Virus record (IMG/VR): IMGVR_UViG_3300031772_000373
Span: 1 to 20,080 of that record
Length of the DNA stretch: 20,080 nucleotides
Reading direction: 5' to 3' (one strand)
Source of the DNA: a virus
Below, in pieces: positions 2,850 through 19,504 of the stretch (within the stretch, counting starts at the first letter, position 1; each line of letters starts with the position of its first letter). A program made the translations under genes and the position numbers. Below the pieces are notes generated by a model. That model worked only from the letters and a program-made list of their open reading frames with translations. It was not told the DNA's origin and did no database searches.

Positions 2850-3221
2850 ATGAAAAAGGAAATGCGTAAGGTTTTCGCGGAAGCTATTTCTAATCTTGGA
2901 AAACTTTTTGAAGAGAAGAAAATCTGCACCATAATGATCGGAGGAACGCTTCACGTCTACTCGAAGGAAATGAGGTCCGTCATAGAGGAAAGAATCAAGC
3001 GGGCTCTCGATGAAGGGAAATCGGTTAAGGAGAATGGAATAACAAAGTGGAAGCGGTTCATGGCCGTTATCAATCCGGGGAGGGAAGGATCGGCCCGCTA
3101 TATTTGGGATAAGAGCGGGAATAAGGTTAAGGCAGAAGTTTTCCTCTACACTAAGGTTAGAGAAAACAATCCTACCCGTGAGTCAGTAGGATTTAAGTAT
3201 ATAAGCTGGGATGAAGTTTGA
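2850..3221 (+). CDS. Hypothetical protein, 123 residues
   Basis: The ATG at 2850 follows GAGGAGG (2836-2842) in the shared GGAAAACTTTTT leader. The N-terminal half is helical and charged (MKKEMRKVFA onward). The C-terminal half is beta-rich and includes WKRFMAVINP and ARYIWDKSG. No cysteine motif, signal peptide or membrane span is apparent apart from single cysteines. The last codons overlap an alternative ATG at 3211 that would extend the next gene, but that extension precedes the next ribosome site. Function unknown. Confidence 0.75.
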   Translation: MKKEMRKVFAEAISNLGKLFEEKKICTIMIGGTLHVYSKEMRSVIEERIKRALDEGKSVKENGITKWKRFMAVINPGREGSARYIWDKSGNKVKAEVFLYTKVRENNPTRESVGFKYISWDEV

Positions 3222-3225
3222 TTAT

Positions 3226-3276
3226 CAATCCTGTACGGTGTCCCGTCCGAAAGGACGCGGACCCCGCGTAGGATTG
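3226..3276 (+). promoter_or_regulatory. Intergenic hairpin, family member 4
   Basis: CAATCCT (3226-3232) pairs with AGGATTG (3270-3276). An inner GCGTCC-type arm closes on a GAAA loop (CGTCC, GAAA, GGACG). It has the same TACGGT left-arm start and CCCGCG right-arm end as the other members. A GAAAAC and T8 run (3282-3290) follow it and then GAGGAGG, so weak termination or attenuation in front of the AAA+ gene is conceivable. Confidence 0.65.
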
Positions 3277-3306
3277 GAAAACTTTTTTTTAGAGGAGGAT
3301 GGAGAT

Positions 3307-4461
3307 ATGAGCAGCGAGAAGGATTTAGTAAACCCGTATGGGAACAATTCCAAGTGTCGGGACTTTTTCAAGCTCTTGCAGGAGGGCCCGAAGACCGCGC
3401 AACAGTTGATTGACTCCGGGATTGTGAAGCATCCCAGGAGAATCCGGGAACTGGCGACGATTCTCAATATGCTGGACGGGCTTCGCGTGCGGGCCCAATA
3501 CAAGAAAGACGTTTTTGACTTGGATGCCGTCTGGAGTATCAACGTTACGGCTCTTTCTTGCCCGCTCATTCAGAAACCGGGAGCGGCGACAGTGGCGGTT
3601 CAGACGGGCCCAACGATTCCGGTCATTCCCGCGAAGATCGGGCGGTATATCCCGCACAAGAAATTTGGGCTTGCTCTCGTCAGCGTGCGCGAGGGAAACA
3701 ACATTTTCCTGTACGGGCCCAGCGGCTCCGGGAAAACTGAAATGGCCTTACAGTTGGCCAAGGCAGACGGAAACCGCGAAACCATCCGAACCAATTTCCA
3801 CAAGGACACCGGAGAAGCGGAGGTTATCGGGGAGGTTTCGCTCAGACAGGAGGCGGGAGTTACGGTTACGGAATGGCACGAAGGGGATTTCGGACGGGCT
3901 TGCCGCCTTGCAAGTGAAGGGAAAAAAATTCTCTTCATTGCGGACGAAATCACGGCTTCTCCCGCCGAAACGTGCTTTCGGTTTCATCGGGTTTTGGAAT
4001 TGCGAAAGGACGGCTCAAGGGAGATCGAGATTCACGGCGAGTTACTAAAGATTCCGGCGGGGAATCTTACCATCGTGGCAACGTCGAATACCTTCCGGCT
4101 CGATGAGCATGGCGAATTTCCCGGAGTCAATACGATGAATCCCGCGTTTTGCAGAAGGTGGACGGGCGGCGTTTTCTTCGTTGACTACGCGGAGAATGAG
4201 GCCGATATCATCGAAGCCAACGGGGTGGGGCGCGAAATGGCACGGGCCCTCACGCAGATGGCCAAGGCAATCCGGAGGCGTTCGATAGACGAGCATCTTC
4301 CCGTCCTCTGTTCCATGGGAACAATGATTGCCGTGGGGCTCAAGGCCCGTCAGTGGGGGATAGAAGAGGCTCTCGCTAATATCTATCTCTCTACACTCCT
4401 GGCGGATGAGAGGGAGCGGGTTGTTGATCCCGTCGTTAGGATTATCAATTTCCCACAGTAA
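3307..4461 (+). CDS. MoxR/CobS-like AAA+ ATPase with N-terminal wHTH
   Basis: A 384-residue AAA+ ATPase expected to couple ATP hydrolysis to remodelling of a partner. Residues about 18-75 look like a winged-helix domain (FFKLLQEG to VFDLD). The ATPase core carries Walker A GPSGSGKT at 137-144, Walker B ILFIADE at 208-214, a sensor-1 stretch IVATSN near 256-261 and an arginine pair in FCRRW near 281-285. This layout matches the MoxR/CobS branch (cobaltochelatase CobS, RavA), whose members work with VWA-domain partners. Such a partner follows 96 bases downstream. The ATG at 3307 follows GAGGAGG; an ATG at 3211 upstream would translate through the hairpin and was rejected. CobS-like genes are known in phages; the target here is unknown, and no cobalamin pathway is implied. 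Confidence 0.88.
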   Translation: MSSEKDLVNPYGNNSKCRDFFKLLQEGPKTAQQLIDSGIVKHPRRIRELATILNMLDGLRVRAQYKKDVFDLDAVWSINVTALSCPLIQKPGAATVAVQTGPTIPVIPAKIGRYIPHKKFGLALVSVREGNNIFLYGPSGSGKTEMALQLAKADGNRETIRTNFHKDTGEAEVIGEVSLRQEAGVTVTEWHEGDFGRACRLASEGKKILFIADEITASPAETCFRFHRVLELRKDGSREIEIHGELLKIPAGNLTIVATSNTFRLDEHGEFPGVNTMNPAFCRRWTGGVFFVDYAENEADIIEANGVGREMARALTQMAKAIRRRSIDEHLPVLCSMGTMIAVGLKARQWGIEEALANIYLSTLLADERERVVDPVVRIINFPQ

Positions 4462-4481
4462 GATATATAAAATCTCCATAT

Positions 4482-4510
4482 CGTTACTCATGATGAGAAC
4501 ATGAGTAACG
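4482..4510. promoter_or_regulatory. Perfect 11-bp inverted repeat between AAA+ and VWA genes
   Basis: CGTTACTCATG (4482-4492) and CATGAGTAACG (4500-4510) are perfect complements around a 7-base loop. GAACGGGGTTTTT follows, so a T5 run starts about 9 bases after the stem. The element may act as a weak intrinsic terminator or attenuator that sets the AAA+ to VWA protein ratio, or as a dyad operator. The sequence alone does not decide. Confidence 0.5.
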
Positions 4511-4557
4511 GAACGGGGTTTTTATGGCTAAGGGTTTGGTAATGATCGGAGGATGGT

Positions 4558-6054
4558 ATGTCAGACGAAACGATTTTCGGTTCGGAGTACGGCAAGGAAG
4601 ATTCGGGGATTTGCCCGAAGTGCGGCGAGTGGAACTGCAAGGATCATGCGGACGTGAACGACGCCTTTCGGCAGGATACGGGATTCGGAGGCGGGCCCGG
4701 GGCCTTCATGGGCGCGGTTCTCATGATCCCGCTTTCCGACAAGGTTAAGGAGATGCTGAAGCGGGGCGAAGGGATCGTTATCAATACGGGGAAGGCCAAC
4801 ACTTTCGAGAAAGTGGAAGCCGACAAAGACGAAGAGCAGGACGAACAGGAGGCGGAAGAGCAGGACGAACAGGAGGAACAGGAGGAAGAGGACGAAGACG
4901 AAGACAGGGAAGTAAGCGAGGACGAGAAAAAGGCGATTGATGATATGGAGGCAATCGCCTCGCCCGAAGTTGTGGATACGACGGGGGGAAAGAAAGTTCC
5001 GAAGTTTGGTAAAGTCAATCTTCCTCCGATCCATATCAGCGGGCGGCATACTCGATATGACGATGAGGAGCGGGAAATCGCCCCGAATAGCAAGGGCGAG
5101 GCGATGCACCTTGATTTAGTCAAAGAAGAAATGGTTATGACGAGCCGCAAGGGGCTGATGATGTCTTGGCGGCAGTATCGAGCGAAGAAAACTCCGATGG
5201 CTCCGATGTATGCGGAGCGTTTCCTCGCCGTCCAGAAGAAGGCCGAAGAAATCATCCCCAACCTTCGGAGGCAGATTTCCGCCGCTCTGGAAGCCGAAGC
5301 GAAGATTGCCCAGGAGCGCGGAACGAAGAAGGGCAAGATTGACGCGGGGCTTGTGCATAAGGTCGCTACGGAGGCCAGCGTCAATATCTTCTCCCGCAAG
5401 GCCGCGAAGAAGTCCTTCAAGTCCGCCGTTTCTATCGTGCTGGACGATTCCGGCTCGATGGCGGAAACTCCTGCTGGTATCAGAGCAACGGCAAGCATCC
5501 TTTCAATGGGGGTGGAAGAGTTCCTCGCGTGCAAGGCGGGAGCGGTTTCGGTTTTGACATACGCGCTGGGCGAGGTCTTCAATTCGCTTGGCGTCAAGTT
5601 CGAGATCGTTTCCTACCAGATGAATTTCCGTTGTCCCAGTGAAAGGAATTGGGGAAGTTTCCATTGGGACGGTCACTACGCGATTCAGTACAAGGGATTC
5701 AATGAGGCGTGGAATGCGGTAAAGGGACGTTTGGTAAACTACATTCCGTTGGGGGCCTTTCTTCCGTATGAGGCCGCAAATTACGCCATGGATCATTTGC
5801 TCAAACAGGATGCACAGAAGAGAGTGTGCATTATGTTGACGGATGCGGATGATTCCAACAAAGGTTCCGGAGAGCTTGGCTATCTCTCCACCGAAGTTGA
5901 TCGGAGGTATAACATTCAGTTTGTCGGCATCGGGATTCTTCAGGACAATATCAAGAGTCAGATGCCTGGAAAATCCGAAGTGGTCATGAAATTGGAGGAT
6001 TTGAATTCGGCGGTATTCAATAAGCTGGCGAAGCTGATACATCCGGCTTCCTAG
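4558..6054 (+). CDS. CobT-like VWA-domain protein
   Basis: A 498-residue protein that probably partners the AAA+ ATPase just upstream. The start follows CGGAGGATGGT. Residues 19-30 hold CPKCGEWNCKDH, a likely zinc knuckle. Residues about 87-125 are almost entirely Glu, Asp and Gln. A helical middle leads to the VWA domain from about 285 to the end, with an intact MIDAS start D296-D-S298-G-S300-M and a later LTDADDS. The segment just before the MIDAS (KIDAGLVHKV to SRKAAKKSF) matches the order of elements in CobT, as does the acidic stretch. In the family, CobT and CobS form a chelatase complex; RavA-ViaA is a parallel. In phages such pairs have unclear roles. Confidence is high for the fold and low for the substrate. 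Confidence 0.87.
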   Translation: MSDETIFGSEYGKEDSGICPKCGEWNCKDHADVNDAFRQDTGFGGGPGAFMGAVLMIPLSDKVKEMLKRGEGIVINTGKANTFEKVEADKDEEQDEQEAEEQDEQEEQEEEDEDEDREVSEDEKKAIDDMEAIASPEVVDTTGGKKVPKFGKVNLPPIHISGRHTRYDDEEREIAPNSKGEAMHLDLVKEEMVMTSRKGLMMSWRQYRAKKTPMAPMYAERFLAVQKKAEEIIPNLRRQISAALEAEAKIAQERGTKKGKIDAGLVHKVATEASVNIFSRKAAKKSFKSAVSIVLDDSGSMAETPAGIRATASILSMGVEEFLACKAGAVSVLTYALGEVFNSLGVKFEIVSYQMNFRCPSERNWGSFHWDGHYAIQYKGFNEAWNAVKGRLVNYIPLGAFLPYEAANYAMDHLLKQDAQKRVCIMLTDADDSNKGSGELGYLSTEVDRRYNIQFVGIGILQDNIKSQMPGKSEVVMKLEDLNSAVFNKLAKLIHPAS

Positions 6055-10679: not shown

Positions 10680-13600
10680 ATGAAGAACAGAGATTTTGTT
10701 CAGCTACATAATCATACGGAACATTCACTTCTAGACGGCGCGATAAAACTGGAGCGGCTCTGCAAGGGGGCCCAAGAAAGCGGTTACAAGGCTCTGGCAA
10801 TCACCGATCATGGCAACATGGACGGGGCCGTAAGATTTTCAAATCTGTGCGCTGAGAACGGGCTCCAGGGAATCTACGGGGTTGAACTCTATCTCCTGGA
10901 AAATTGGGAACCGGAGTTCAAAGATTACCAAAAGAATTTACATCTAACCATACACGCTAAAAACGCTGAAGGATTCCAAGCCCTGATGAAGGGGCTCTCG
11001 TATGCGAACCTTGAAGGCGTCCGGAAAGCCGGATATGCAGCACGCCCTTTCCTCCCCCTGGAATACCCCCTGGAAGCTCCAGGATGGCGTAGGAACGTTG
11101 TAATCTCTACGGGCTGCGTAGGGAGTCCATTTTGGAACACTGAGGGCGGTATAGGGCTTCTGGAGCGTTATTCGGAAGTCTATGGGGAAGACCTATACGC
11201 GGAAACGATGCCCCTGGACGATATCGAGCGTCAAAAGACCGTCAACAAATGTGCTTTGGAAATGTCCCGGAGGCTGGGGATTAAACCTATAGTTACTTGT
11301 GACGCCCATTACTTACGGGCCGAAGATTACCAAACTCATGAAGTCCTTCTAGCCGTGAGTCAGCATGGCGTATCATGGGATGATCCGAAGCGTTGGAAAT
11401 TTGATTCCAAGAAAAATTACCTTCAAGACGCAAACGAAGTTTATCATTCTCTTAGACGTATGCACGTCGATTCTGAAACGGCGAAACGATGCATTCTGAA
11501 TACCAGAGAAATAGCGGAGAAATGTACATTCAAGTTGGAAAGAATTCCCGTTGAATTGCCCCGCGTATTTTCGTGGGATGAAAAAAAATATCTCGTAAAG
11601 AAATGCATGGCTGAAATGAGTCGGCGGGGCTTCGACAAGAACAATACATATAATCGGCGTCTTGAATATGAGCTTGACGTAATTATCAATAGTGGATTCA
11701 CTCGATATATTTTGCTTGTCGCGGATGTAGTTTCATTTGCAAAAGAGGCCGGAATTCTAGTCGGGCCCGGACGCGGATCGGTGGGGGGTTCCCTTGTCGC
11801 TTACCTTATGCATATCACCGAAGTTGATCCAATAAAATACGGGCTCGTCTTCGAGCGGTTCCTGGCGGCGGGTCGAGTCGATCTTCCAGATATTGATTTG
11901 GATTTCGAGGACCGTAAACGCTACATGATTGAAAATTATCTCCGCGAGAAATACGGAGAGTGGCACGTCGCGCACGTTGCCACGTTCGGGACCATGCGCG
12001 GGAGGCAAGCGGTCCAGGATGTATCCAGGGTATTCGGAGTCCCTCGCCCCGAAGTCATGCAAATGACGAAATGCATACTATTTCGTCCGGACAATGACGC
12101 GAGAGCGGAAAGCTCGATATCGGATAGCGTAAAGATTTTCAAAGAAGCTAAAGAATTCAAGCATCGGCATCCGAACGTTATCAAGCACGCGATAAAGTTA
12201 GAGGGGCAAGTCCGCTCCGCTGGCGTCCATGCGGCGGGCCTTGTTGTAAGCAAACGGGATTTGCGCAAACATGGCAATTGCTATTTAATCAATCGCAAGG
12301 GGAAAATAACCGTCAATTGGGATAAGAGGGATTTAGAATTCCAGGGGCTCATGAAACTTGACGTGCTAGGATTATCAACGCTGTCCGTTATGAGCGCGGC
12401 GAAGGATTTGATATTCGAGAGGCACGGGAAGACGATAGACTTTTATCAATTATCACTTGACGATCCAAAAGTATACAAAGAGATAGCAGAAGGAAGTACA
12501 GTTTGTGGATTCCAAATCGGATCGAAGGGGTTGCAACAGTATTGTGCCGAATTAAAGGTTGATGAGTTCTCGATCCTTGCCGATGCTATCGCTCTCTGGC
12601 GTCCAGGATGTCTACAGGCCGGGATAACCAAGAAATATTCGGAGTGCCGGAATAAACGTGAGAGGCCGAAGTATTATAACTCTGTGCATAAGCAAATCAC
12701 GGGCGGCACGCAAGGCCAGATAATTTACCAAGAACAAGTTATGTTTCTGCTTTCTTTTATGGCGGGATTCCCATGGGAAGAGGCTGATAAGGTCCGTAAA
12801 ATTATAGGTAAGAAGGAAGGCTTCGAGGCATGGGGAGAGTACAAAGAAAAATTCGTCAAGGGATGCGTCAAGAAAAAGATGCTGGAAGAAGAAGAGGCGG
12901 AAGAGTTCTTTGATAATCTTCGCTTCTTCTCGCAGTATGCTTTCAACCTTAGCCACAGTATCGAATACGCCATGCTTGCGTATTTGACTATGTGGCTTAA
13001 AGTTTATTATCCAACAGAATTTATTTGTGCATATCTCGATTGCGGAAACGTTGACAACAAAGAATCCGCGAGTGAGGAAGAAAAGATTGATATCGTCCTG
13101 AAGGAAGGGAAGCGTTTGGGTATCGACGTTAAACTTCCCGATATAAATAAATCGCTTCCGGGATGGAAGATTATCAAAGATAAAAAGCTCTTGGCTGGAT
13201 TGGCTCAAGTGGCGAATTGCGGGCCCAAGGCGCAAGAGACGATCCTGGAAGCACGCGCAAAGATGGGCGGGCCCTTCCAGAATCTTCAACACTTCATTGA
13301 TAATATTGACCGTAGACGTTGCAATAAAAGAGTCGTCGAGATGCTCATAAAGGCCGGGGCTTTCGATAACATTCTATCCGAAGACGATTCAAAACTCTGG
13401 AAGATTCACTTTGAAGAACTGTATGCACAGATTGGGACGAAAAATAAACTCTCCGAAACCCTGGAGGGTATGAAGAAAAATCTTGAGCATGATTGGAAGT
13501 TGAATGAGGATAAAGTTTTTCAATATCAAACCGACGCTCTTAATTTCAATGCGTATAGCAATATTATGGGCCCCTATAGAAAGCTGGCGCAAGTAATCCG

Positions 13601-14546
13601 GGATCATCTGCATATCCATAATGTAGGATTGATAAAGAAAGAATTGGGCGAAATGTCCCGGCTTTATATTGCTCAGGCTATGTCATTGAAATTCTCGTAT
13701 CAGGAGAAGGCCAAAAAAGCCAGCGAATCTCTTGGGGGAGTGTTTGGTAATCTTGACGATGGGACGGGATTTGTTTCTGCCGTCTATCCTCACGATTTAT
13801 ATACCAAGAGACAAAAGACGATAGAGAGATTGAGGGGCGAAGCGGCGGTATTCAGACTTACTAAACCAGAGAGATTCAGGGGAGCGTCAATTAATAAGTG
13901 CCTTGTCGAGGATGTAGTCACGCTTGATAGTATCTCCAGGGGGAAACCCGGTTTCCTGAAACTCGATATGTTGGGGGAAGTCCCTAAAGATTTTCCCGTG
14001 AAAGAATATCGGGAGGCCGTGCATAGTTGTAAACAATGTCCCCTGTATAAGGGTTGCCGGAAACCCGTTCCCGCCACGATTGGTAATAATAATATCCTCA
14101 TATTGGGGGAGGCTCCTGGCGGGGAAGAGGACGATGCCAACGAAGGATTTATCGGGAAGAGTGGTCAATTGCTATTCAGAGAATTAAAGAGGGCCGGGAT
14201 TGATCGGGAAGATTGTATCATTGGTAATTGCGTATGTTGCCGTCCTCCCGGGAATAAACTCAAGACTCCGGAACCGATCAAACGTTGTCCCTGGATTACC
14301 ATTCTGATTGAGACTTTGAAACCGAAATTCATCTTGTCATGCGGTAATAGCCCGTTATATCTAGTGAAGGGTTTGACTAAGGGGATTACAGCATTGAGTG
14401 GGAAAACGGAATTCATCCCTCGATTTGAAGCATGGACAACTTTTTCAATTCATCCGGCTTCCGTTCTCTATGACGTTCGAGAAATGAAAACTTTAAGACT
14501 TGCGGTTAGAGAATTTGCAACAGTAATTACAAATCTTTCTAGATAA
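10680..14546 (+). CDS. DnaE-type DNA polymerase fused to a uracil-DNA glycosylase
   Basis: A 1288-residue C-family replicative polymerase. The N-terminal PHP domain (to about 290) has all nine expected metal ligands: H10, H12, D19, H44, E69, H88, C146, D208, H210. That predicts proofreading exonuclease activity within this chain. The palm carries GPGRGSVGGSLVAY, PDIDLDF with D404 and D406, and the third aspartate D561 in KLDVLGL. A helix-hairpin-helix region (GLAQVANCGP to LIKAGAFD) follows, then a degenerate OB-like stretch. From about residue 1110, a family-4-type UDG domain has four iron-sulfur cysteines C1117, C1120, C1187, C1203, motif GEAPG at 1143-1147 and HPAS at 1258-1261. SPO1-type polymerases carry a related UDG-like domain at the N terminus; here it is C-terminal. 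E. coli DnaE has 1160 residues and no such domain. Confidence 0.95.
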   Translation: MKNRDFVQLHNHTEHSLLDGAIKLERLCKGAQESGYKALAITDHGNMDGAVRFSNLCAENGLQGIYGVELYLLENWEPEFKDYQKNLHLTIHAKNAEGFQALMKGLSYANLEGVRKAGYAARPFLPLEYPLEAPGWRRNVVISTGCVGSPFWNTEGGIGLLERYSEVYGEDLYAETMPLDDIERQKTVNKCALEMSRRLGIKPIVTCDAHYLRAEDYQTHEVLLAVSQHGVSWDDPKRWKFDSKKNYLQDANEVYHSLRRMHVDSETAKRCILNTREIAEKCTFKLERIPVELPRVFSWDEKKYLVKKCMAEMSRRGFDKNNTYNRRLEYELDVIINSGFTRYILLVADVVSFAKEAGILVGPGRGSVGGSLVAYLMHITEVDPIKYGLVFERFLAAGRVDLPDIDLDFEDRKRYMIENYLREKYGEWHVAHVATFGTMRGRQAVQDVSRVFGVPRPEVMQMTKCILFRPDNDARAESSISDSVKIFKEAKEFKHRHPNVIKHAIKLEGQVRSAGVHAAGLVVSKRDLRKHGNCYLINRKGKITVNWDKRDLEFQGLMKLDVLGLSTLSVMSAAKDLIFERHGKTIDFYQLSLDDPKVYKEIAEGSTVCGFQIGSKGLQQYCAELKVDEFSILADAIALWRPGCLQAGITKKYSECRNKRERPKYYNSVHKQITGGTQGQIIYQEQVMFLLSFMAGFPWEEADKVRKIIGKKEGFEAWGEYKEKFVKGCVKKKMLEEEEAEEFFDNLRFFSQYAFNLSHSIEYAMLAYLTMWLKVYYPTEFICAYLDCGNVDNKESASEEEKIDIVLKEGKRLGIDVKLPDINKSLPGWKIIKDKKLLAGLAQVANCGPKAQETILEARAKMGGPFQNLQHFIDNIDRRRCNKRVVEMLIKAGAFDNILSEDDSKLWKIHFEELYAQIGTKNKLSETLEGMKKNLEHDWKLNEDKVFQYQTDALNFNAYSNIMGPYRKLAQVIRDHLHIHNVGLIKKELGEMSRLYIAQAMSLKFSYQEKAKKASESLGGVFGNLDDGTGFVSAVYPHDLYTKRQKTIERLRGEAAVFRLTKPERFRGASINKCLVEDVVTLDSISRGKPGFLKLDMLGEVPKDFPVKEYREAVHSCKQCPLYKGCRKPVPATIGNNNILILGEAPGGEEDDANEGFIGKSGQLLFRELKRAGIDREDCIIGNCVCCRPPGNKLKTPEPIKRCPWITILIETLKPKFILSCGNSPLYLVKGLTKGITALSGKTEFIPRFEAWTTFSIHPASVLYDVREMKTLRLAVREFATVITNLSR

Positions 14547-14893: not shown

Positions 14894-15351
14894 AGATGAA
14901 TTTTGTTGTAAAGATTGACAAGGATCGAATTTATAAATTTGATCTGGAAGAGGAACTGAAAATAGAGCGTGATGATCTGGATAGCCAATTAGGGGAACAA
15001 CCAAGTAAATTCGCGTGGTTTGCCTCTATGTGCGCGATGGCGCACGCGAAGGCAGAGAAGGCCGAATATCGGCTGAAGCAATATGAAGCGGAAATAGATT
15101 TGAAAATCCGCGAGAGCAAGGGAGATGCAAAACTGACGGAAGCCGCGATTAAGGCAAAGGTGATGAATGATTCTGAGCGATTGGCTTTGGTAAATAGATT
15201 GATTGCGGCGAAGGAGCAGTATGAAATAGTACAGGCGGCTAGAGATGCATTCGATCAACGGAAGGATTGTCTGATAAGCATCGGTGCTAATCGGAGGGCA
15301 GAGCATGACGTAGAATGTTTCCTGAAGGAAAAGAAAAAGAATCGTGATTGA
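14890..15351 (+). CDS. UvsY-like recombination mediator (tentative)
   Basis: A 153-residue, mostly helical protein. The order of elements (an acidic LEEELKIERD start, a W-containing helix with AMAHAKAEKAEYRLKQYE, a Lys/Glu helix, then AAIKAKVMNDSERLALV and a closing helix) parallels T4 UvsY, which loads UvsX onto gp32-coated single-stranded DNA. No enzymatic motif is present, as expected for UvsY. The strongest argument is position: it is followed directly by the gp32-like SSB and the RecA/UvsX gene. It overlaps the zinc-finger gene by four bases (ATGA). An unrelated coiled-coil protein would look much the same, so the call is moderate. Confidence 0.5.
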   Translation: MKMNFVVKIDKDRIYKFDLEEELKIERDDLDSQLGEQPSKFAWFASMCAMAHAKAEKAEYRLKQYEAEIDLKIRESKGDAKLTEAAIKAKVMNDSERLALVNRLIAAKEQYEIVQAARDAFDQRKDCLISIGANRRAEHDVECFLKEKKKNRD

Positions 15352-15365
15352 TAAAGGAGAAAAGC

Positions 15366-16799
15366 ATGGCCGTCAATGTAGCGAAAATGCGGAAGAAGTT
15401 GCATCGGTGGAATAAAGACAAGGAAAGGAGGCAGAGCGGAGGAAGATTCTGGCGTCCAGAGGACGGGGAGAACAGGATTCGGATTCTTCCCCCGAAGCGT
15501 GGGGATGAATTCTGTTTAGAGTATATGCGGCATTTCGGAATCCTGAAGCGCCCCGTTCCGTGTCCCCAGTCCATCGGAAAGCGTTGTCCTGCCCATGAGG
15601 TTACGGCGAAGTTATTCAAGTCCCGCCGTAGTGGTGATATTGAGTTGGCGAAGCGCCTTGCGGGGAAGAGGACGTTCGTTACCAATATCATAGATCGAAA
15701 TGGCGATCCGAATATCCCTCTAGTTTGGGAATTCGGTCCTCAGATTTACGAGCAGTTGCTTTCCTATTTTGCTGATGATGAGTGGGGCGATATCACCGAT
15801 GGGGAAAAAGGATATGATGTAAAGATAGAGAAAAGTGGAGAAGGGCTTGATACGTCTTATCAAGTCAAAGTTGCTAAGAATCCGTCTAAGTTGAAAAACT
15901 GGAGGAAACTTATGTCGAAAGCGCAAGACATCGAGGAATTTGTGGAGTATCCTTCGGCGCATGAAATGGAAACCATGCTTGAAGGGGATTACGAAGAGGC
16001 GAAGGAAGAGGACGCCGACGAAGAGGAGGAGGACGAAGAGGGGGAAGAGGAGGAGAAGAAGGTTAAGAAGGGAAAGAAGTCCAAGTCTTCCAAGAAATCC
16101 AAAAAGGATGATGACGACGAAGAGGAAGAGGATGAGGAGGAAGACGAAGAGGAAGAGGAAGAAGACGACGACGAAGACGCGGAAGAGGAAAAGCCCTCCA
16201 AGAAAAAGAAGAAGTCCAAAAAGTCAAAGGCCAAGGATGAGGATGATGAGGAGGAAGAGGACGACGACGAAGAGGAAGATGATGAGGATGATGAGGAAGA
16301 CGACGATGAAGACGAAAAGCCCGCAAAGAAATCCAAAAAGTCTAAGTCCAAGGGAAAGAAGTCTGATGAAGACGATGACGACGATGAGGAAGATGATGAA
16401 GACGATGAGGAGGACGATGAAGACGATGATGACGATGATGAAGAGGACGATGAAAAGCCTGTAAAGAAATCTAAGAAGTCCAAGAAATCCAAGCCTAAGT
16501 CTAAGTCCGATGATGAGGACGAAGAGGAGGATGAGGACGACGAAGAGGAGGATGAGGACGACGAAGAGGAAGAGGAGGAGAAGCCGAAGAAGAAGTCCAA
16601 GAAATCCAAGTCCAAGTCCAAGGACGACGAAGAGGACGACGACGAAGAGGAGGATGAGGACGACGACGAAGACGACGAAGAGGAAGACGACGATGACGAA
16701 GAGGAAGACGACGACGAGAAACCTAAGAAGAAGGATAAGAAGGGGAAGAAGTTCGATGTAAACGATGCGCTTGATAAGATAAGGAAGGGAAAGAAGTAA
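15366..16799 (+). CDS. gp32-like ssDNA-binding protein with giant charge-block tail
   Basis: A 477-residue protein. The ATG at 15366 follows AAAGGAG; an in-frame TTG at 15348 was rejected. The N-terminal core (1-208) has a gp32-like order: basic LAST-like start (KKLHRWNKDK), a strand ENRIRILPPK, and a metal site H56, C66, C74, H77, comparable to H64, C77, C87, C90 in T4 gp32. It likely binds single-stranded DNA cooperatively. From residue 209 onward more than half of the protein is tail: six Asp/Glu runs, each followed by a Lys block (consensus KPxKKSKKSKSK), ending in a basic stretch (KIRKGKK). In T4 the acidic C-terminal tail, about 50 residues, binds replication proteins. This one is several times longer and alternates sign, so a condensate-forming or partner-recruiting disordered region is plausible. 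Confidence 0.82.
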   Translation: MAVNVAKMRKKLHRWNKDKERRQSGGRFWRPEDGENRIRILPPKRGDEFCLEYMRHFGILKRPVPCPQSIGKRCPAHEVTAKLFKSRRSGDIELAKRLAGKRTFVTNIIDRNGDPNIPLVWEFGPQIYEQLLSYFADDEWGDITDGEKGYDVKIEKSGEGLDTSYQVKVAKNPSKLKNWRKLMSKAQDIEEFVEYPSAHEMETMLEGDYEEAKEEDADEEEEDEEGEEEEKKVKKGKKSKSSKKSKKDDDDEEEEDEEEDEEEEEEDDDEDAEEEKPSKKKKKSKKSKAKDEDDEEEEDDDEEEDDEDDEEDDDEDEKPAKKSKKSKSKGKKSDEDDDDDEEDDEDDEEDDEDDDDDDEEDDEKPVKKSKKSKKSKPKSKSDDEDEEEDEDDEEEDEDDEEEEEEKPKKKSKKSKSKSKDDEEDDDEEEDEDDDEDDEEEDDDDEEEDDDEKPKKKDKKGKKFDVNDALDKIRKGKK

Positions 16800-16831: not shown

Positions 16832-17791
16832 ATGGCTAAGAAAAAGGTATTCCTGGCGGAAGCCGTTCGATTGTTGATCCGCAAACTGGGCCAGCCACCT
16901 AAGATCGAATGGAAGAGGACGGGAATTCATGCCTTTGATCTGGCCTTGGGGAACGGAATTCCTATAGGCAGAATACTGGAAATCTACGGGGATGAGAGTA
17001 CGGGGAAAAGTCTTTTGGGATGGGAGATAGCGAAGGCATTCCAGAAGATAGGGGCTGTTGTAGTTATATTCGATACTGAAGCAACAGCCCCTAAAAAGTT
17101 TATGCACAGAGTCGGGCTTAATGTCGATCAAGTAATTTATAGAAAGCCTGAAACCATAGAGGAATTGGAAAAAGAATTCTTTATCATTCTTGACGCTCTA
17201 AAGAAGATTGATAAGGATATCATGGTTTTATTCCTCCATGATTCCGTTGCCGCTACTTCATCAGAAGGTGAATGGACATACGATGCCAAACTCAAGAGGA
17301 AGATGCCGAAAGAGACTGAAATGGGCGCGAGGGCGCGGGCCATGTCCCGGCTCATGCGCCATATTGCCCGTGATGTATCAAAGAGTAGGGCTACTTATAT
17401 CGCCATTAATCAAGTACGGGATAAGATCGGAGTTATGTTTGGAGAGAAAACCACTACTCCCGGAGGGCGGGCTCTAAAATTCCATGCATCAGTTAGAATT
17501 TCTCTTGGAAGGGGAGGCCGGATAGACGCTCCCGGCGGCGTTCCTGTCGGCGTCATATGTAATATGTTTGTGAAGAAAAATAAATGTGCGGAGCCATTCA
17601 GAAAGGCTCCTTTAAAGATACTTTGGAAGCAAGGCTTTGATAGATTTGGGGGCCTTGCCGAATTTCTGGAATCTCAGGGGAAGATTGAAAAAGTTAAGAA
17701 TCGGTATAAGTATCGTAACATGAGATTCAGAGCGAAGAATATCGAGAGGGTTGTCCGCAAGCACCGTGAATTGATAAAGGCTATATACTAG
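16832..17791 (+). CDS. RecA/UvsX-family recombinase
   Basis: A 319-residue strand-exchange ATPase, slightly shorter than E. coli RecA. Walker A is GDESTGKS at 53-60, the catalytic Glu is E83 in IFDTEATA, and the Walker B region reads IMVLFLHDS with D137. The L2-side sequence includes INQVRDKIGVMFG, followed by TTPGGRALKFHASVRI, both typical of RecA proteins. The C terminus is strongly basic (KNIERVVRKH) and lacks the acidic tail of bacterial RecA. A GGAG precedes the ATG by about 10 bases. With the UvsY-like and SSB genes directly upstream, it should form filaments on phage single-stranded DNA to start recombination-dependent replication and repair. Confidence 0.93.
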   Translation: MAKKKVFLAEAVRLLIRKLGQPPKIEWKRTGIHAFDLALGNGIPIGRILEIYGDESTGKSLLGWEIAKAFQKIGAVVVIFDTEATAPKKFMHRVGLNVDQVIYRKPETIEELEKEFFIILDALKKIDKDIMVLFLHDSVAATSSEGEWTYDAKLKRKMPKETEMGARARAMSRLMRHIARDVSKSRATYIAINQVRDKIGVMFGEKTTTPGGRALKFHASVRISLGRGGRIDAPGGVPVGVICNMFVKKNKCAEPFRKAPLKILWKQGFDRFGGLAEFLESQGKIEKVKNRYKYRNMRFRAKNIERVVRKHRELIKAIY

Positions 17792-18406: not shown

Positions 18407-19504
18407 ATGGCAAAATTTTTAGTCTTCTCCGATCTTCATGCATATCGTTGGCCCGCGTTTGCCCATCTATCTAAACGCGGCGTGAATTCCCGCTTATTAT
18501 CAATCATCTCTGTCCTGAAGAATATTCTTCAGGCATCCAAGGATAATAATTGCGATGCTATATTATTCGCGGGAGATTTATTTCATACTCCTAAGATAGA
18601 CGTAACGGAATACGATTTGGTAGCGCGGCAATTGCGGGCATCTCCAATTCCAATAGTAATGATCCCCGGGAATCACGATGAAGCGGAAGCGGGCCCGCAC
18701 TATCATTCGATGCGGGCTCTTGTGGGCAAAGGCCGTATTTTACTTGATCCTAGAGAAGGCTGTATTACCAAACAGGGGGATACGGTTATAGGCGGAATCC
18801 CCTTCTGCAAGGATGTTTTATCAGAGATGAAGGCGATAAGAGGGGCGGATATAATCCTTATGCATACCGGGTTTGCAGGGGCGCAAGCCGGGTTTGACTA
18901 TATAGCAGAGCAGAAGAAATTTCTTCAGGCATCAAAACTCTACAAGTATGATTATAGATTGATAATCGCCGGACATTTTCATACGCCTCAATTAATTTAT
19001 AAAAGGGAGGAATATCCTACACCGTGTAATGACGGCGTGGAATATCCTATTAGGAATAAATTGATTCTTATTCCAGGGGCTCCTCTTCCGCATACATTCG
19101 GAGATGTAGGGCCGCGAGGATATTGGATTATAGATGATAAGAGGGCGAAGTTTACCAAGATGGGGGCCCCTCAATTCGTCAAGCTCGATCCTTCCAGAGA
19201 ATCGCATATGACCGTGGACCTTTTAAGATCGTTGATAGCCGGAAACTATGTCCACTATACGGCGCATTCGATGGAAGAATATAAAATGGCTCATGAGATT
19301 TTATCGGTCGATGCCGTAGGATTTTCAATCACTCTGGAGGAAAAGAGGAAGAAGGAGGCCAATCGAATCAATATATGTCTGGACACTCCACGGCTTAAAG
19401 CATTGAAGCGATACGTCAAGGCTAATCCTATGCATAAGATTGATAATGACAGGCTGATTGACATTGGACTTAATCTGTTGTCGATGGCGGAATCAAATGC
19501 TTGA
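18407..19504 (+). CDS. SbcD/gp47-like Mre11-family nuclease
   Basis: A 365-residue metallophosphoesterase. All five signature motifs are present: D9-x-H11 (FSDLH), D57 in GDLFH, N89-H90 in PGNHDE, H153 in LMHTG, and H190-F-H192 in AGHFH. These coordinate two Mn ions in Mre11-type nucleases. SbcD and T4 gp47 use them for 3'-5' exonuclease and endonuclease activity with an SMC-type ATPase (SbcC or gp46). The C-terminal third (residues about 250-365) has the capping-domain character expected. The ribosome site is weak (AAGG about 11 bases upstream). The partner ATPase is not in this window but would be expected just downstream. Confidence 0.92.
   Translation: MAKFLVFSDLHAYRWPAFAHLSKRGVNSRLLSIISVLKNILQASKDNNCDAILFAGDLFHTPKIDVTEYDLVARQLRASPIPIVMIPGNHDEAEAGPHYHSMRALVGKGRILLDPREGCITKQGDTVIGGIPFCKDVLSEMKAIRGADIILMHTGFAGAQAGFDYIAEQKKFLQASKLYKYDYRLIIAGHFHTPQLIYKREEYPTPCNDGVEYPIRNKLILIPGAPLPHTFGDVGPRGYWIIDDKRAKFTKMGAPQFVKLDPSRESHMTVDLLRSLIAGNYVHYTAHSMEEYKMAHEILSVDAVGFSITLEEKRKKEANRINICLDTPRLKALKRYVKANPMHKIDNDRLIDIGLNLLSMAESNA

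Follow-up and report, generated by a model that had tools for sequence, protein, structure and literature searches.

A tailed-phage DnaE polymerase with a C-terminal family-4-like uracil-DNA glycosylase domain that may excise uracil at its own fork

The window analysed here, a 20,080-base virus record from IMG/VR (IMGVR_UViG_3300031772_000373), encodes a DnaE-type C-family DNA polymerase that ends in a domain resembling family 4 uracil-DNA glycosylases (UDG). A preliminary description of this DNA had claimed that one uninterrupted frame joins the DnaE core to the UDG part, and indeed a single frame runs from ATG to stop at 10680-14546 on the + strand and encodes 1288 aa. Its domains and key residues are listed below, with UDG sites numbered after the Thermus enzyme UDGa (Tth; PMC5387724).

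10680..14546, + strand: DnaE-type C-family DNA polymerase with a C-terminal family-4-like UDG domain, 1288 aa
10704..11021, + strand: PHP domain (Pfam, residues 9-114, 3e-28)
11586..12371, + strand: catalytic core DNA_pol3_alpha, including D404, D406 and D561 (Pfam, residues 303-564, 1.4e-78)
12378..12875, + strand: finger domain (Pfam, residues 567-732, 2.3e-37)
13119..13373, + strand: helix-hairpin-helix (HhH) domain HHH_6 (Pfam, residues 814-898, 9.7e-19)
13659..13922, + strand: OB fold, residues ~994-1081, between HhH and UDG (five predicted strands, alignment with Taq DnaE)
13995..14543, + strand: family-4-like UDG domain, residues 1106-1288 (PF03167, TIGR00758, NF040953, structure match)
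14028..14039, + strand: cluster cysteines 1 and 2, C1117 and C1120 (CxxC)
14106..14120, + strand: motif 1 GEAPG, residues 1143-1147, with E1144 equivalent to Tth E41 (PMC5387724)
14238..14288, + strand: cluster cysteines 3 and 4, C1187 and C1203, with N1192 (Tth N89) between them
14451..14462, + strand: motif 2 HPAS, residues 1258-1261, with H1258 equivalent to Tth H155 (PMC5387724)

All five Pfam domains score above their cut-offs in the order PHP, DNA_pol3_alpha, finger, HHH_6 and UDG, so that both halves of the protein are recognised by profile, and TIGR00594 assigns the polymerase to the DnaE type with 738.9 bits against a curated cut-off of 434.35. The catalytic aspartates lie where they had been placed, D404 and D406 in PDIDLDF and D561 in LKLDVLG. 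For active PHP domains the nine-residue motif HHDHEH[C/H]DH has been described (PMC12926913). The window reads HHDHEHCDH with all nine ligands present (H10, H12, D19, H44, E69, H88, C146, D208 and H210) and thus carries the motif from which exonuclease activity is predicted. An AlphaFold2 model of residues 286-1288, built with 45 homologues (mean pLDDT 89, pTM 0.78), superposes with its residues 1-803 (protein 286-1088) on residues 285-1127 of Taq DnaE (3e0d) at 3.5 Å over 724 residues (VIA-align), the match extending through the OB region. A tau-binding C-terminal domain, which follows the OB fold in DnaE1-type proteins, is missing, as the UDG sits there; according to the model the OB fold is kept and the UDG takes the place of this usual domain.

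The UDG half matches PF03167 over residues 1136-1268 (3.6e-15, 56.7 bits against a gathering cut-off of 24.3). The closest profiles by sequence are those of family 4, TIGR00758 with 91.1 bits and NF040953 with 95.3 bits; as both scores lie under the curated NCBIfam cut-offs of 125.3 and 250 bits, we call the domain family-4-like. Four iron-sulfur cysteines had been reported, the last two 16 residues apart, along with GEAPG and HPAS motifs, and all are present and the cysteines are conserved in relatives. At the ten family-4 sites (the four cysteines, E41, E47, F54, N80 and H155, and N89) the window reads CCEEFNCNCH. In the Thermus enzyme H155 is the main catalytic residue, and H155 and N80 are central to the chemistry of the family (PMC5387724). 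The proposed check by structure prediction also turned out in favour of the assignment: residues 821-1003 of the model superpose on Tth UDG 1ui0 at 1.6 Å over 181 residues (Z 26.2), and the structure comparisons with Tth UDG as a whole gave 1.5-1.6 Å. We also considered UdgX, whose hallmarks are a GEQPG motif A and a KRRIH loop with His109, as described in PMC10359453. This identity was rejected because the window has GEAPG, shows CRPPGNKLKTP without the KRRIH loop and scores 62.8 against 189.95 bits with TIGR03914.

Three scans of viral contigs starting from the UDG and one starting from the DnaE core gave 102 distinct DnaE proteins with an in-frame C-terminal UDG or UDG-like domain, and the UDG is C-terminal in every fused open reading frame (ORF) listed. 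The four cysteines together with E41, N80 and H155 (E1144, N1183 and H1258 in the window) are all found in 68 of the 102, and four more deviate only by an exchange of E41 to Q. Fused relatives are only ~33-42% identical to the window protein over 1003 residues, yet this set is strictly co-conserved; the four cysteines are invariant in 46/46 sequences of alignment A4. A chance match is excluded by the co-conservation of these seven residues together with the superposition on 1ui0. The window's branch, which keeps the OB fold, the four cysteines and the uracil pocket, is large and apparently undescribed.

How readily such proteins are seen depends on the query. With P0001 as the single query, a scan of viral contigs gave no match, whereas alignment-based scans did find relatives, and no INPHARED record covered 80% of the whole window protein. 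Despite this null result, a search with the UDG domain of a relative exposed the degenerate form in a Rhizobium phage. None of the 80 cellular UDG loci listed from a genome-contig scan, which is biased to free family-4 UDGs, is fused to DnaE, and this bias means that an absence of the fusion from cells is not implied.

The fusion of two genes by an assembly or frame error, looked for at the domain boundary as a possible refutation, has a negligible probability. It could draw on two relatives in which the DnaE frame is broken once inside the polymerase, namely the nearest relative L088 (5188-5216, with an ATGA stop/start overlap) and L008 (near 5500, at an A-rich run), which may be split genes or sequence errors. 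The window frame itself is intact, and an assembly join is excluded since many independent contigs as well as cultured phages carry the same domain order in a single frame. Three other members, L012, L035 and L097, are much longer than the rest, with DnaE-UDG frames of 1898, 2195 and 1689 aa respectively, which points to inteins or other inserts within the polymerase.

About 27 of the 102 proteins are degenerate. N, S, A or G stands in place of their catalytic histidine, D usually in place of E41 and T, A or S in place of N80, and the cysteines are partly or wholly gone; several members keep three cysteines and have lost the pocket while others have no cysteine at all. Every examined copy from a cultured phage belongs here (RHEph10, RHph_Y2_11, B1VFA, Cyrano, SSU5, nickie and BUCTxx99). 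The UDG fold is still predicted for the degenerate domain of L293, with a TM-score of 0.85 to 1l9g. In the 215-kb contig G031 (L294) PF03167 occurs twice, at 49493-49828 and 156744-157094, both within DnaE-UDG frames of 1149 aa; this duplication may stem from a concatenated assembly or from the joining of two related genomes. In L264, L266, L268, L270, L283, L284 and L289 DnaE ends after the HhH region at ~890-906 aa and a UDG was undetected in the DNA fetched for them; as these lie near the UDG-bearing branch, the entire C-terminal part may have been lost secondarily.

To place the fusion we reconstructed quick trees of both parts. In the tree of 117 DnaE cores one branch (SH-aLRT 88, supported but not starred) separates 86 rows on the UDG side from 31 without UDG, among the latter E. 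coli DnaE and the enzymes of other cultured phages. Judged by this split the fusion is old and retained. The majority of the degenerate copies cluster in one starred group, and the inactivation in L285 is a separate one within the active branch. In the UDG tree the DnaE-linked domains, active and degenerate, fall into one starred set of 76 rows, which also holds one PolA-linked and one free viral UDG, while nearly all PolA-linked domains are located elsewhere. This fits a single DnaE-UDG fusion, separate from the PolA-UDG fusions, in which catalysis was probably lost at least twice, and it bears out the earlier proposal that the pairing arose independently of the SPO1-type PolA-UDG.

Loss of the UDG residues goes along with other changes. 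The window and the full-length active-like proteins have all PHP ligands, and 17 of 19 degenerate proteins have lost them. For a DnaQ-like exonuclease (PF00929) the count was 3/29 active-like against 11/13 degenerate contigs and for a trimeric dUTPase (PF00692) 0/29 against 8/13, where the contigs are fragments and mostly one lineage is compared with the rest; six further active-like contigs also had no PF00692 dUTPase. Counted by dead or intact UDG site, the dUTPase figures are 8 of 14 and 0 of 29. In L290 the UDG is dead, the PHP domain intact and a dUTPase present, and a DnaQ-like gene was looked for there and none found; since it shows the first loss without the second, the two are separable. 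L285 likewise combines a dead UDG with an intact PHP domain and has no dUTPase in its 50-kb contig. That DnaQ compensates for a dead PHP domain is already known in bacteria (PMC12926913). Of 42 contigs, 41 have no second UDG gene and the remaining one carries another DnaE-UDG, and thus the fused domain is the only detectable UDG of these phages. Searches for thymidylate synthase (PF00303), dUTPase_2, MazG and AP_endonuc_2 did not cleanly separate the active-like from the degenerate group. We also considered a phage with uracil-containing DNA of the PBS1 type, which is unsupported, as the active-looking UDG argues against it and ThyX occurs in several relatives.

The dUTPase/DnaQ pattern is suggestive but confounded with lineage, and we treat it as a hypothesis. 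It could mean that a single chain is polymerase, PHP proofreader and active iron-sulfur UDG policing its own product, and that in one phage lineage both fidelity domains decayed to pseudo-enzymes as the phage acquired separate DnaQ-like and dUTPase genes, a natural switch of fidelity functions from cis to trans. To this reading as a whole, which is tentative, we give somewhat less than an even chance.

The gene set of the window is phage-like and includes a tRNA-Met. Genes around the polymerase are:

3211..4461, + strand: AAA_5 ATPase, CobS/MoxR-like
4558..6054, + strand: CobT-like VWA protein
15348..16799, + strand: single-strand DNA-binding protein (phrog_1192)
16832..17791, + strand: UvsX/RecA-like recombinase
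18407..19504, + strand: SbcD-like nuclease

The CobS/CobT-like pair of AAA_5 and VWA genes is found upstream of DnaE-UDG both in the window (3211-6054) and in RHEph10, and cobalamin-annotated genes stand at the same place in Cyrano (loci L244:1-1745 and L254:1-1811 for the two relatives).

On balance we consider it probable that the protein is the replicative DnaE of a tailed phage that has lost the tau-binding domain and gained a [4Fe-4S] UDG once, and that it removes uracil in cis at the fork where it works. Since the OB fold deals with template DNA close to the fork, the UDG placed just behind it would be tethered there. Uracil arising from cytosine deamination or dUTP incorporation would be encountered when the DNA moves past the OB/UDG end. 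There the base would be flipped by the UDG, with H1258 stabilising the leaving uracilate, N1183 reading the base and N1192 placing the water. The resulting abasic site would stall the replicase and could be handed to host base-excision repair or to the phage recombination genes (UvsX, SbcD). With the intact PHP domain at the other end, polymerase, proofreader and uracil surveillance would be united on one chain. This model builds on the architecture, the predicted fold, the conserved residues, the one-lineage pattern and the loss of the same residues in the sister branch; from these we infer that the UDG of the window is active, that it acts on the substrate of its own polymerase and what would follow from excision.

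Several observations weigh against this model. In the SSU5/RHEph10 branch the fold persists without catalysis, so the domain must serve for more than catalysis, and a replicase that carries an active UDG runs the risk of creating abasic sites in front of the fork. All 80 cellular UDGs listed and 32 of 34 PolA-linked ones have N at position N89; most of the active-like UDGs linked to DnaE have T or S there, which may indicate a weakened or altered chemistry, although the window keeps N1192. An AP (abasic site) endonuclease of type PF01261 was not found in the contigs. The dUTPase/DnaQ correlations amount to two independent contrasts, the Fisher p of ~2e-5 ignores kinship and significance is unreachable once kinship is counted; moreover, DnaE phages without UDG also mostly have no dUTPase.

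The chief rival to excision in cis is that the UDG fold serves mainly for structure or DNA binding, as a substitute for the missing C-terminal domain, for processivity or for docking of a partner, with catalysis incidental or weak. A whole branch (SSU5, Cyrano, nickie, BUCTxx99, RHEph10 and B1VFA) keeps the fold in place without the histidine and most or all cysteines, L293 is an example of the persisting fold, and vaccinia D4, a UDG that acts as polymerase processivity factor, offers a precedent (PMC10253040). In the degenerate branch such a role must account for at least some of what the domain does. As the explanation for the window it is rather unlikely, since in its branch cluster and pocket have been preserved together despite great divergence, for which a mere scaffold gives no need. 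Thus both functional options of the preliminary description, excision or a non-catalytic role, find support, each in a different branch: catalysis in the window's, and a non-catalytic role in the SSU5/RHEph10 branch.

The domain might also act as a read-ahead sensor that binds template uracil, cuts it slowly or never and stalls the polymerase. In archaeal B-family polymerases an N-terminal pocket binds template uracil and stalls the enzyme. The position of the UDG directly after the OB fold would suit such a role, and with T or S in place of N89, as in most relatives, hydrolysis could be slowed and binding retained. We consider this improbable, as the window has N1192 and the full family-4 set, and the archaeal pocket is unrelated. 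More improbable still is a [4Fe-4S] cluster serving as a redox or stability switch of the polymerase with uracil chemistry being secondary. The invariance of the cysteines in alignment A4 would agree with it, but the pocket residues are as strictly conserved as the cysteines, and some degenerate members retain three cysteines without the pocket, yet others lost every one.

It has long been asked how polymerases cope with uracil that they meet at the fork, and the main known solution built into a polymerase is the read-ahead stalling of archaea. Replicases with an intact-looking UDG, with an inactivated UDG (including that of SSU5, which infects laboratory Salmonella) and without UDG form a matched natural set, which lets assays tell apart excision in cis, sensing and a purely structural role. 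The analysis also accounts for the PF03167 matches and 'uracil-DNA glycosylase' labels on hundreds of SSU5-type plasmid polymerases, of which the examined copies no longer have the catalytic residues.

The architecture as such, which had been taken as new, was already described in 2013 as a DnaE variant in which PF03167 replaces OB fold and C-terminal domain, present as an additional DnaE in certain strains of Yersinia pestis and of Salmonella enterica (PMC3919608), and a GenBank note calls gp048 of the Rhizobium phage RHEph10 'uracil-DNA glycosylase-like'. Searches with the Cyrano C-terminus matched 923 plasmid and 30 phage records, SSU5 included. Most likely, then, the variant of 2013 corresponds to the polymerase of SSU5-type phage-plasmids, matched by the description in that paper with SSU5 standing in for the Y. 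pestis copy. In PLSDB, SSU5-type polymerase genes or their C-termini are labelled 'uracil-DNA glycosylase' (CP043255.1, CP052552.1, NZ_CP050908.1 and others); the examined copies of this type (SSU5, Cyrano) have no catalytic residues. In the literature searched, mostly papers outside subscription journals, no description of a catalytically intact, OB-retaining DnaE-UDG was found. The kind is thus known but barely described, and its intact OB-retaining form appears to be what is new.

Compared with the known systems, the DnaEX-UDG of Timinskas et al. (PMC3919608; SSU5 gp052, Cyrano gp49, RHEph10 gp048) is the closest. It shares with the window the PHP-Pol3-HhH core, a PF03167-type domain instead of the C-terminal domain, the side of the DnaE tree and, in RHEph10, CobS/CobT-like genes nearby. 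However, in DnaEX-UDG the OB fold is replaced too, the PHP ligands are lost, the histidine is N or S and the cysteines are wholly or partly lost, whereas the window keeps the OB fold, the PHP ligands, the four cysteines and the full uracil pocket. The SPO1/PaBG-type PolA-UDG, described for PaBG (PMC7412058; PDB 9qhs matches by sequence), also carries a family-4-like UDG on a phage polymerase, and 29 of 34 loci keep the cysteines and the catalytic set, but there the UDG is N-terminal on an A-family polymerase and in the window it is C-terminal on a C-family one. Split versions of PolA-UDG occur in L040, L047, L048, L062, L079 and L085, where a UDG-bearing ORF of ~400 aa is followed downstream by a separate PolA-like ORF of ~470-510 aa. 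Family 4 UDG itself (UDGa; Tth 1ui0, Thermotoga maritima TM0511) shares the fold within 1.5-2 Å, the four cysteines, GEAPG, HPA, N80 and N89; it is free-standing in cells, and the fused domain stays below the TIGR00758 cut-off of that family. Vaccinia D4 (PMC10253040) likewise puts a UDG in the service of a viral replicase, but it is a family 1 enzyme and a separate protein working with an unrelated polymerase. Finally, bacterial DnaE1 (Thermus, M. tuberculosis, E. coli) shares PHP, palm, fingers, HhH, OB fold and catalytic aspartates with the window, and the exonuclease-active enzyme from M. tuberculosis (PMC5636811) has intact PHP ligands as well; in contrast to these enzymes, the window protein has no tau-binding C-terminal domain and carries the UDG instead.

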